Assembly: GCA_030697825.1 (NCBI GenBank)
Contig: JAUYOW010000035.1
Location: 1 to 34,285 of the forward strand
Direction: 5' to 3'
Length of the DNA stretch: 34,285 nucleotides
DNA from: Gemmatimonadales bacterium
GTDB lineage: Bacteria; Gemmatimonadota; Gemmatimonadetes; Gemmatimonadales; JACORV01
Position 1 is the first letter of the stretch. Each line of letters opens with the position of its first letter. Positions 25,962-29,776 of the stretch are shown piece by piece. The notes below the pieces were generated by a model, which did no database searches, was not told the DNA's origin, and saw only the letters and a program-made list of their open reading frames with translations. The position numbers were made by a program, and so were the translations under genes.

Positions 25962-26014
25962 AGCGGTTACCGCGGGTTGCGCAACGGGTTTTGACTAGCG
26001 AGTTTTTCCTCCGC

Positions 26015-26087
<73 letters not shown>

Positions 26088-26124
26088 TTCCTCTAGCGGC
26101 ACATCAAACTAGCCCAACTCTTGC

Positions 26125-26152
26125 CGGTCGGCCGCCACACGGCCACCGACCG
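26125..26152. terminator. Possible hairpin after tRNA-Lys
   Basis: CGGTCGG (26125-26131) pairs perfectly with CCGACCG (26146-26152), and an inner CCG/CGG pair can extend it. There is no U-run, so it is a weak terminator candidate. The rest of 26088-26226 shows nothing recognisable except the ribosome site of the next gene. Confidence 0.3.
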
Positions 26153-26226
26153 CGATCCGGGGTGGCGCTGGACATCGCGGGCGAGGCGAGGAATGTTCTT
26201 CCGGTGAGGACCAAGGCGAGGTGCGT

Positions 26227-26694
26227 ATGCCCGTCCAACGCTTGAAGGAGTTCCTCGACGCTAACGGCGTCAAGTACGTCGAGATCAGCCACTCGCCGGG
26301 CTACACCGCGCAGGAGCTGGCCGCCGCGGCGCACGTCCCCGGCAAGGAGTGGGCGAAGACCGTCGTCGTGAAGGTGGACGGCCGGCTGGCGATGGCGGTG
26401 CTGCCCGCCTCGTCGAGGGTGATCCTCGACCTGCTGCGGCAGGCGACCGGCGCCAAGAACGTCGAGCTCGCGACGGAGCGTGAGTTCGCCGATCGGTTCC
26501 CCGGCTGCGAGCTGGGCGCGATGCCGCCCTTCGGCAACCTCTACGACATGGACGTCTTCGTCGAGGAGCGGCTCGCGAATGACGAGGAGATCGCCTTCAA
26601 CGCGGGCACGTACACCGAGGTGATCAAGCTCGCCTACCAGGACTACCAGCGGCTGGTGAAGCCGAAGGTCCTCAAGTTCGCGACGACGCACTGA
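26227..26694 (+). CDS. YbaK/ProX-type aminoacyl-tRNA deacylase
   Basis: A single YbaK/aaRS-associated domain of 155 residues from ATG 26227, preceded by GAGG at 5 nt. Motifs are YTAQELAAAAHVPGKEWAKT ending in the conserved Lys, GAMPPFGNLYDMDVFVEE, and IAFNAGTYTEVIKLAYQDY. Family members hydrolyse mischarged tRNAs: YbaK clears Cys-tRNA(Pro), and relatives clear Ala-tRNA(Pro) or other species. Which tRNA this one edits cannot be read from the sequence. Its position just ahead of a cysteine-controlled operon is notable, but the promoter of that operon lies after this stop codon. Confidence 0.85.
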   Translation: MPVQRLKEFLDANGVKYVEISHSPGYTAQELAAAAHVPGKEWAKTVVVKVDGRLAMAVLPASSRVILDLLRQATGAKNVELATEREFADRFPGCELGAMPPFGNLYDMDVFVEERLANDEEIAFNAGTYTEVIKLAYQDYQRLVKPKVLKFATTH

Positions 26695-26698
26695 GGCC

Positions 26699-26734
26699 TT
26701 GACCGCCGTCGGAGCCGCCGTTAAGTACCATCGT
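26699..26734 (+). promoter_or_regulatory. Promoter of the cysteine leader/operon
   Basis: TTGACC (26699-26704) is a near-consensus -35. After 16-17 nt comes a weaker -10 (TTAAGT at 26721 or TAAGTA at 26722). The predicted transcription start falls at or within one or two bases of the leader ATG at 26735, and no Shine-Dalgarno precedes that ATG, so the leader mRNA is probably leaderless. The -35 lies 5 nt after the YbaK-like stop. Confidence 0.6.
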
Positions 26735-26848
26735 ATGATCGATTGTTCCCTTTCACTGCCGGTCCAGCTGTGCGGGTGCTGCACCTGCTGCTGTTGCCCT
26801 GCCCCGACGGGAGTGGGGACCGGCTCGTGGGGGATGCGCGCTGTGTAG
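26735..26848 (+). CDS. Poly-cysteine leader peptide (attenuator)
   Basis: A 37-codon ORF, from ATG to TAG, whose product contains LCGCCTCCCCPAPTG. Codons 13, 15, 16, 18, 19, 20 and 21 (26771-26797) are Cys, seven of nine, and codon 4 is Cys as well. It lies between a promoter and an intrinsic terminator directly upstream of a cysteine biosynthesis operon. This is the layout of amino-acid leader peptides such as those of trp and his: ribosomes stall at Cys codons when Cys-tRNA(Cys) is short. Leaderless poly-cysteine leader ORFs that sense cysteine are known from mycobacteria; here the ORF is coupled to an obvious terminator. The peptide itself is not expected to have a further function. Confidence 0.8.
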   Translation: MIDCSLSLPVQLCGCCTCCCCPAPTGVGTGSWGMRAV

Positions 26849-26893
26849 GCGAGCATCGCCGCTAGAAAGAGCAGAGGCAACCGGCCCACCTCC
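26810..26893 (+). promoter_or_regulatory. Candidate antiterminator pairing
   Basis: Three 4-bp blocks pair in register: GGAG (26810-26813) with CTCC (26890-26893), TGGG (26814-26817) with CCCA (26885-26888), and CCGG (26820-26823) with CCGG (26881-26884), with bulges of one C on the right strand and GA on the left. The left strand lies inside the leader ORF just after the Cys run, and the right strand includes nearly the whole 5' arm of the terminator. The two structures therefore exclude each other. A ribosome stalled on the Cys codons would leave the left strand free. A competing short stem CCCC (26802-26805) with GGGG (26815-26818) could form after normal translation. Confidence 0.6.
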
Positions 26894-26914
26894 GAGTCAT
26901 CGAGGTGGGCTTTT
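26884..26914 (+). terminator. Intrinsic terminator before cysM (attenuator)
   Basis: GCCCACCTC (26884-26892) and GAGGTGGGC (26902-26910) form a perfect 9-bp GC-rich stem with a 9-nt loop, followed directly by TTTT (26911-26914). It ends 5 nt before the GGAGGAGG ribosome site of the cysteine synthase gene. It lies downstream of a complete leader ORF rather than right after the previous gene, which fits attenuation. Confidence 0.85.
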
Positions 26915-26932
26915 CATTTGGAGGAGGGGCGC

Positions 26933-27910
26933 GTGGCGGGCAGTCTCGCCGGAGCGACGCACCAGGCACTGACCGTCCCCGGCCGGCGCGAGCCGGCGCT
27001 GTGGGGGCTCGTCGGGAACACCCCGATCATTCCGCTCGAGCCACCGGAGGGTCCCGGGTCCGCCCGGCCCGCGCTGCTCCTCAAGGCGGAGTGGTTCAAC
27101 CCGGGCGGCTCGGTGAAGGACCGCCCGGCGCGGGAGATCCTGCGCAGCGGGCTCGCGATGGGCGCTCTGCCGCAGCGGCGCCTGCTCGACTCGTCCAGCG
27201 GCAACACGGCCGTCGCCTACGCGACGCTCGGCGCCGCGGCTGGGATCGGCGTGACGGTGTGCGTGCCCGCCAACGCCTCGCGGGCGCGACGCAACCAGCT
27301 CCGCCTCCTCGGCGCGGAGGTGGTCGAGACCGACCCGCTCGAGGGGAGCGACGGCGCCATCCGCCGCGCCCGGGAGCTCGCCGCCGCCGAGCCCGAGCGC
27401 TACTGGTACGCCGACCAGTACAACAACCCCGCGAATCCTCGGGCGCACGAGCGCACGACGGGTCCCGAGATCTGGCGAGACACGCGCGGCCGAATCACCC
27501 ACCTCGTGGCGGGCGTGGGAACGAGCGGGACGCTGGTCGGTGCGGGACGGTTCCTGAAGGCGCGGCGCGCGGACATCCGCCTCGTCGCCGTCCAGCCGGA
27601 GGGCCCGCTGCACGGCCTCGAGGGGCTCAAGCACCTGGCGACGGCGATCGCCCCCGGCATCTACGACCCCTCGATCGTGGACGAGACGGTGTTCGTGGCG
27701 ACGGAGGCCGCGGAGGCGAAGGTCCGCCAACTCGCGCGCGAGCGGGGAGTCTTCGTCGGCTGGTCCACGGGCGCGGCGCTCGTCGCGGCGGACCAGGTGC
27801 TCGCGCGCGCGGGCGCGCCGCGCGGCGGGCCGCCGGTCGTCGTGGCGATCGCGCCCGACGGTGGCGCCTCGTACCTCGCCGACGAGCGTCGCCTGCTCGG
27901 GGAGCCATGA
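26933..27910 (+). CDS. cysM: Cysteine synthase, CysM-like (sulfur-carrier type)
   Basis: A PLP enzyme of 325 residues. The start GTG 26933 is chosen because GGAGGAGG lies just upstream; a TTG at 26918 would put that site inside the gene. Motifs are LVGNTPIIPL, the PLP-Lys motif WFNPGGSVKDRP, DSSSGNTAVAYATLGAAAGI, the phosphate-binding loop GVGTSGTLVGAG, and STGAALVA. The middle (GLKHLATAIAPGIYD) resembles CysM of the mycobacterial CysO pathway, which uses O-phosphoserine and thiocarboxylated CysO as sulfur donor. The next two genes supply the Mec peptidase and the carrier-activating fusion, which supports that role. The ATGA overlap with the next gene indicates coupling. Confidence 0.9.
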   Translation: MAGSLAGATHQALTVPGRREPALWGLVGNTPIIPLEPPEGPGSARPALLLKAEWFNPGGSVKDRPAREILRSGLAMGALPQRRLLDSSSGNTAVAYATLGAAAGIGVTVCVPANASRARRNQLRLLGAEVVETDPLEGSDGAIRRARELAAAEPERYWYADQYNNPANPRAHERTTGPEIWRDTRGRITHLVAGVGTSGTLVGAGRFLKARRADIRLVAVQPEGPLHGLEGLKHLATAIAPGIYDPSIVDETVFVATEAAEAKVRQLARERGVFVGWSTGAALVAADQVLARAGAPRGGPPVVVAIAPDGGASYLADERRLLGEP

Positions 27911-28344
27911 GCGTGCGGATCGCCCCCGGTGTGCTGGCCGAGATCCGGCGGCACCTCGCCGCGGCGTACCCGAGCGAGGGGTGCGGCTTCCTGCTCGGCA
28001 CGCGGGGACCAAACGGCAACGTCGTCGTCGACCGCGAGCTTCCGGTCCCTAACCAGCGGGCGGCGGATGGCGGTGAGCGCACGCGCTACCTCATCGCGCC
28101 CGACGACTTCCTCACGGCCGAGCGAGAGGCGCGGCGGGCCGGCCTCGTAGTGGTGGGCACGTACCACTCTCATCCCGACGTGCCCGCGCGCCCCTCGGCG
28201 TACGACACCGAGCACGCCTGGCCGTGGTGGTGCTACCTCATCGCGTCGGTCGCCGGCGGCGACGTGCGCGAGGAGCGAGTGTGGGAGCTGCGCGACGATC
28301 GAAGCGGTTTCGTGGAACGCGAACTCGAAGTGAAGGAGTCATGA
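27907..28344 (+). CDS. mec: JAMM/Mpn+ metallopeptidase, Mec-like
   Basis: The 145-residue product carries a complete JAMM motif: Glu24 in YPSEGCGFLLG, then HSHPDVPARPSAYD with His87, His89, Ser97 and Asp100 (HSH-x7-S-x2-D), a zinc site. In the CysO pathway Mec cleaves the CysO-cysteine adduct after the carrier diglycine and frees cysteine. The start overlaps the cysM stop as ATGA. In this operon the carrier is part of a longer fusion, so this peptidase might also mature the carrier; that is an inference. Confidence 0.92.
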   Translation: MSVRIAPGVLAEIRRHLAAAYPSEGCGFLLGTRGPNGNVVVDRELPVPNQRAADGGERTRYLIAPDDFLTAEREARRAGLVVVGTYHSHPDVPARPSAYDTEHAWPWWCYLIASVAGGDVREERVWELRDDRSGFVERELEVKES

Positions 28345-28345
28345 T

Positions 28346-29776
<1,431 letters not shown>

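Follow-up and report, generated by a model that had tools for sequence, protein, structure and literature searches.

A 2005 study predicted leader peptides with runs of Cys ahead of cys operons and of cbs in Mycobacterium, Propionibacterium and Bifidobacterium (PMC1262725); this actinobacterial work found no conserved terminator hairpins and suggested Rho. Candidate polycysteine short ORFs on leaderless mycobacterial transcripts appear in Shell et al. 2015 (PMC4633059), and mycobacterial polycysteine leaders are reported to act as translation attenuation, as shown by Canestrari et al. 2020 (Mol Microbiol 114:93), according to the account in PMC13236596. The first-pass annotation of the locus treated here knew of no poly-Cys leader joined to a CysO-pathway operon outside Actinobacteria. 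The lineage is Gemmatimonadales, Gemmatimonadota, and our literature search, which was thin on subscription papers, likewise found no earlier description and nothing that joins Gemmatimonadota with leader peptides and attenuation.

The DNA analysed here (34,285 nt in full, referred to as the window) carries a leader ORF, MIDCSLSLPVQLCGCCTCCCCPAPTGVGTGSWGMRAV with its stop codon (26735-26848), on the plus strand, as are all features described below. The ORF is flanked by a YbaK-like aminoacyl-tRNA editing gene (26221-26694) and a cysM-like gene with its GTG start at 26933, which leave a gap of 238 nt. The product has eight Cys in total, seven of them within the nine codons of 26771-26797 (CGCCTCCCC), which form the putative sensor; translation thus bears out the seven-in-nine count made at first pass. 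The view that such a run is hard to explain by chance also holds for this gap, as none of 5,000 dinucleotide shuffles gave a start-to-stop ORF of up to 60 codons with even 5 Cys in 9. Across the 34-kb window, in six frames, no other stretch has at least 5 Cys in 9. Over the whole genome the codon pattern CCxCC is at chance level (18 sites vs 20 for the reversed pattern used as control). This would follow if CTG-rich genes yield Cys runs in other frames, and such runs are common in frames offset from Leu-rich coding. The run taken alone is therefore weak evidence, and the argument is carried by its place and its conservation. Of the 18 genomic sites, the one in the window is alone in falling within a short ORF that has a start upstream of it and an intergenic promoter context. 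A search of the same genome with CCxCC and TTGAC-N28-32-ATG-N0-30-CC, patterns that CxC spacing would escape, gave 26735-26848 as the only convincing intergenic case, and Rfam returned no family at the leader over 26000-28000. The best NCBIfam name for the YbaK-like gene, Cys-tRNA(Pro) deacylase, scores below cut-off; we rejected this gene as a component of the system, since it is not beside the operon in the relatives checked.

A promoter precedes the ORF, with a -35 element TTGACC at 26699-26704 and a -10 element TAAGTA at 26722-26727, identified from the sequence, promoter scoring and the spacing in relatives. This placement puts the predicted transcription start about 0-2 nt from the leader ATG, and no Shine-Dalgarno sequence is present before that ATG, in agreement with the good -35/-10 and missing ribosome site first noted for the locus. 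In six relatives (G018, G141, G119, G122, G120 and G005), as in the window, the first base of a TTGA/TTGG box is 34-36 nt ahead of the start codon, and G360 has TTGACG 35 nt before its start codon. The spacing kept in the window and these seven relatives supports leaderless initiation, and the leader ORF is probably translated from a leaderless mRNA. Other leaders, including those of G148, G003, G394 and G326, have a predicted 5' UTR; leaderless initiation seems to be common in the order and not universal among relatives. The leader of G394 (MGLAPNRWTRRVCRRLCCCACCCGCCAPRRGRPGGQALRL; L178 / L215) has 9 Cys in 14 codons and a Shine-Dalgarno-like GGGAGGTG before its ATG.

Downstream lie genes for a cysM-like cysteine synthase (26933-27910), a mec-like JAMM (Prok-JAB) protease (27910-28344) and a fusion of CysO (ThiS/MoaD) with MoeZ (ThiF + rhodanese; 28346-29776). 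Over its N-terminal 91 residues the fusion matches M. tuberculosis CysO (PDB 3dwg) as far as the C-terminal AGG of that protein. Directly behind the conserved PSIAGG (residues 86-96, PSIAGG followed by AVNV), a variable linker joins CysO in frame to MoeZ. The same fusion is found in nearly all relatives checked (L003, L005, L016, L017, L150, L151, L153, L154, L215-L217), while in G018 (L193) CysO is unfused and stops at AGG with a stop codon. Because the thiocarboxylate requires a free C-terminus, the neighbouring JAMM/Mec protease may cut the CysO-MoeZ fusion. Neither a PAPS reductase (PF01507) over cut-off nor a CysE over the NCBIfam cut-off was found in the window genome or the other leader-bearing genomes searched, the CysE point being soft, as 6 of 14 control genomes likewise gave no hit over the cut-off of the CysE model. 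This pattern fits a CysO route with another sulfur source, and without a full CysE or PAPS reductase in the genome the operon plausibly serves as a principal route to cysteine.

The cysM protein served as query to find relatives in three sets: 100 relatives, 288 genomes from the order and 395 from the phylum. Cys-rich leaders stand ahead of the orthologous operon in 18 genomes (the window and 17 others) from six families, each with a terminator. The first-pass annotation had proposed a search for similar ORFs ahead of CysM/Mec operons and had named a Cys run unconserved in close relatives as evidence against its reading; the search returned these 18 Gemmatimonadota leaders, and the loss did not occur. 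Within the order the window (G000) is joined by G018 (MSITRCCRCPKPLCCRRGEF...), G141 (...HCGCSRTSEEVGPS), G119 (MLISLSYPASKACCACCCPRASQEVWSG), G122 (MQNIRVPMTEMVSTCCCPQTSEEVGPG), G120 (MQISHVTLPMTGATCCCPQPSEEVGHG) and G148 (MSSQRAQVFCPCCCCRPMCM...). Other families of the class contribute G365 (TCRSCAC), G446 (MSFFCRCCRCC), G427 (MVKLCCKCRHCIC), G360 (SCACICTC), G394 (RLCCCACCCGCC), G326 (VNAACCLCCC), G457 (ACYC), G350 (GCRCPRYCC) and G342, G428 and G368 with CSC or CRC. The Cys motifs include CCACCC, CRCCRCC, CCKCRHCIC, CACICTC and CCCACCCGCC, and the number of Cys per leader runs from 2 to 9, with only two in some leaders (family f7, G004). In the orthologous leader loci checked, cysM is followed by both mec and cysO; the exception is G148, which gave a match to cysM only.

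A second cysteine-synthase operon, cysM'-tusA-dsrE (tusA and dsrE assigned by reading translations), also lies behind Cys-rich leaders in three genomes of the window's own family; with the 18 at the orthologous operon these make up the 21 leaders used below. For 12 out-of-order loci fetched blind to their upstream DNA, the summed best Cys density was 36 on the sense strand vs 8 on the antisense strand, and shuffles gave 13.1 +/- 2.4 (maximum 20 of 400); G394, incomplete in this test, was scored as lacking a leader. No Cys leader was found at the orthologous operons of G022, G153 and G332 or at the paralog-like genes of families f2 and f5 (L206-L210), and 80 loci of CysM relatives in other phyla had no convincing leader within 400 nt.

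Between the leader and cysM lies an intrinsic terminator (26883-26914; dG -20.3 kcal/mol), composed of region 3 (GGCCCACCTC, 26883-26892), a loop of nine nucleotides, region 4 (GAGGTGGGC, 26902-26910) and TTTT at 26911-26914, so that the terminator followed by cysM-mec-cysO/moeZ first described for the locus is confirmed. A terminator is present 16-47 nt past the leader stop codon in all 21 leaders. The candidate antiterminator strand, region 2 (ACGGGAGTGGGGACCGGC, 26807-26824), gives its best duplex with region 3 at -21.2 kcal/mol, and across the leader set this region begins 4-20 nt beyond the last Cys codon of the run. Over the 21 leaders the 2:3 pairing is better than in shuffles (Fisher p = 3e-8, with near-duplicates included and not all leaders independent). 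When partners were swapped among 17 non-redundant sets, own 2:3 pairs were better by a summed 55.9 kcal/mol vs 0 +/- 12.4 (p = 5e-5), a margin matched by none of 20,000 permutations. This set-wide match of the segment after the Cys codons to its own terminator 5' arm points to classical transcription attenuation that senses Cys-tRNA. In the window taken alone, the 2:3 duplex does not surpass shuffles (p = 0.40) and has no specificity in the swap test, whole-leader folding is not significant (z = -1.0), and at equilibrium the terminator is favoured even with a stalled ribosome (93%). Modelling with a stalled ribosome and region 4 not yet made leaves region 3 on average 72% paired to region 2 (85% in the window), while a ribosome placed at the stop codon brings region 3 to 92% in the terminator. 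The antiterminator proposed for the window thus rests on the relatives and on co-transcriptional timing. Region 1 (GCCGGTCC, 26758-26765) can form an 8-bp pairing with GGACCGGC (26817-26824) inside region 2; it may be a protector in the window (p = 0.043), and the set as a whole is without enrichment for it (p = 0.30).

Given these features, we read the locus as a cysteine-responsive, ribosome-mediated transcription attenuator of a CysO-type cysteine biosynthesis operon, to which we assign a probability of roughly three in four. The ORF and its Cys run, the placement of the promoter, the terminator, the operon, the conservation across the class and the set-wide match of region 2 to the terminator are all observed in the DNA; the leaderless start of translation, the stall when Cys-tRNA runs short and the switching itself are predicted from them. 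RNA polymerase would begin at or beside the leader ATG, and a ribosome would load on the leaderless 5' end and translate the leader. With ample Cys-tRNA the ribosome would reach the stop codon and keep region 2 off region 3, in which case the 3:4 terminator would form and transcription would end ahead of cysM. With scarce Cys-tRNA it would stall in the Cys codons and leave region 2 free to pair with region 3 once transcribed, and the polymerase would read through. The conserved leaders and terminators support the ribosome-mediated cysteine sensor suggested at first pass, the response to cysteine itself being deduced, and they refine it to what is likely a terminator/antiterminator control of transcription.

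Some features of the window could also be read as control of cysM translation, where a ribosome stalled in the Cys leader prevents a structure that hides the Shine-Dalgarno sequence and termination is not the main role of the hairpin. The cysM Shine-Dalgarno GGAGGAGG (26920-26927) begins 6 nt past the U tract and is able to base-pair with CACCTCC in region 3, this pairing is part of the minimum-energy fold of the whole leader, and the mycobacterial precedent is described as translational (PMC13236596, citing Canestrari 2020). Against this, a GC-rich hairpin has a T-rich stretch behind it in 21/21 leaders, and in most relatives the terminator arms (e.g. CGGCCGCGG and GAGCCGCGAGC) are not complementary to GGAGG. 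We consider translational control unlikely here, though the most credible of the alternatives to transcription attenuation.

Two other explanations question whether the Cys codons serve as a sensor at all, and both seem highly improbable to us. The run could be a by-product of a Leu/Val-rich +1 frame (GTG at 26770: VRVLHLLLLPCPDGSGDRLVGDARCVGEHRR), or of chance, and not be read as Cys; CTG runs do yield TGC runs in another frame, and the chance-level CCxCC count in the genome is what such an origin would give. Yet the relatives keep Cys in the ATG frame behind the promoter though the surrounding sequence changes, and the Cys enrichment in the blind set is confined to the sense strand. That the ORF product is instead a functional small Cys-rich protein, binding metal or thiol and heading the operon by coincidence, would agree with a translatable ORF in which Cys is the conserved residue. 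Such a protein hardly accounts for the wide variation in sequence, length and Cys spacing (2-9 Cys, from CxC to CCCACCCGCC), and the leaders nevertheless keep their position ahead of a terminator, with adjoining RNA that still matches it.

In other subclades an Rrf2 gene (Pfam PF02082) sits immediately ahead of either cysM or a rhodanese-cysM operon. This arrangement (L016-L020, L112, L114, L116, L118, L186-L189) also comes with a terminator, and G002, assigned to the window's genus, has Rrf2 in place of the Cys leader. Mapped on a cysM tree of 32 rows, the leader label requires 5 changes, of which well-supported branches force at least 3. It falls in separate lineages, and the Rrf2 label makes up other groups. 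The position of the two labels in different groups indicates that one operon has been fitted with either of two regulators. A short ORF upstream of cysM in G086 (MRTPELILVRPRCGSERVSVELHCDLHPVDPQRCSLGAAGN; L120 / L010) resembles the C-terminal Cys region of the relatives' Rrf2 proteins and may be a remnant of an Rrf2-type gene.

In a wider sense, we favour, with less assurance than the attenuator at this locus, the view that Gemmatimonadota possess a class-wide terminator-based cysteine attenuator, often with a leaderless polycysteine leader. Its mechanism would be independent of the mycobacterial translational one; it would control the CysO thiocarboxylate pathway and the second cysteine-synthase operon, and be interchangeable in evolution with an Rrf2-family regulator. 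If true, ribosome-based cysteine sensing extends beyond Actinobacteria to a little-studied phylum, the terminator-based form sought in vain by the 2005 actinobacterial study is supplied, and the leaders provide a ready marker of cysteine-controlled operons in uncultured Gemmatimonadota. The exchange of leader peptide and Rrf2 at one operon also makes the evolution of regulator replacement testable.

Compared with the mycobacterial polycysteine ORFs, the Gemmatimonadota leaders are likewise short and probably leaderless, have clustered Cys codons, come first in a cysteine/sulfur operon and are proposed to let the ribosome sense cysteine. The leaderless start, defining for the mycobacterial attenuator, is matched computationally by the promoter position, the missing Shine-Dalgarno sequence and the seven relatives. 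The two differ in phylum, in the cysM-mec-cysO/moeZ operon that follows the Gemmatimonadales leader, and in mode, as the mycobacterial leaders are reportedly translational and without obvious terminators whereas the Gemmatimonadota leaders all precede an intrinsic terminator with a candidate antiterminator. Sequestration of the ribosome-binding site without an intrinsic terminator, as in mycobacteria, does not describe this group, in which every leader has a terminator and the Shine-Dalgarno pairing, possible in the window, is not general. The actinobacterial cys leader peptides (PMC1262725) are similar in being Cys-run leaders before cys operons found by comparative genomics, but no conserved terminators were seen there vs 21/21 here. 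With the trp, his and ilv attenuators the locus shares a leader peptide rich in the end product, clustered Cys codons here lying before a cysteine operon, together with an intrinsic terminator between leader and first gene and a place upstream of a biosynthetic operon; a competition between antiterminator and terminator, supported over the leader set, would be a further likeness. It differs from them in its signal, cysteine rather than Trp, His or branched-chain amino acids, in the likely leaderless start in the window and in having only a putative 1:2 protector hairpin. We strongly predict that the locus behaves as an attenuator of the classical type that responds to cysteine, the nearest described precedents found being only in Actinobacteria.
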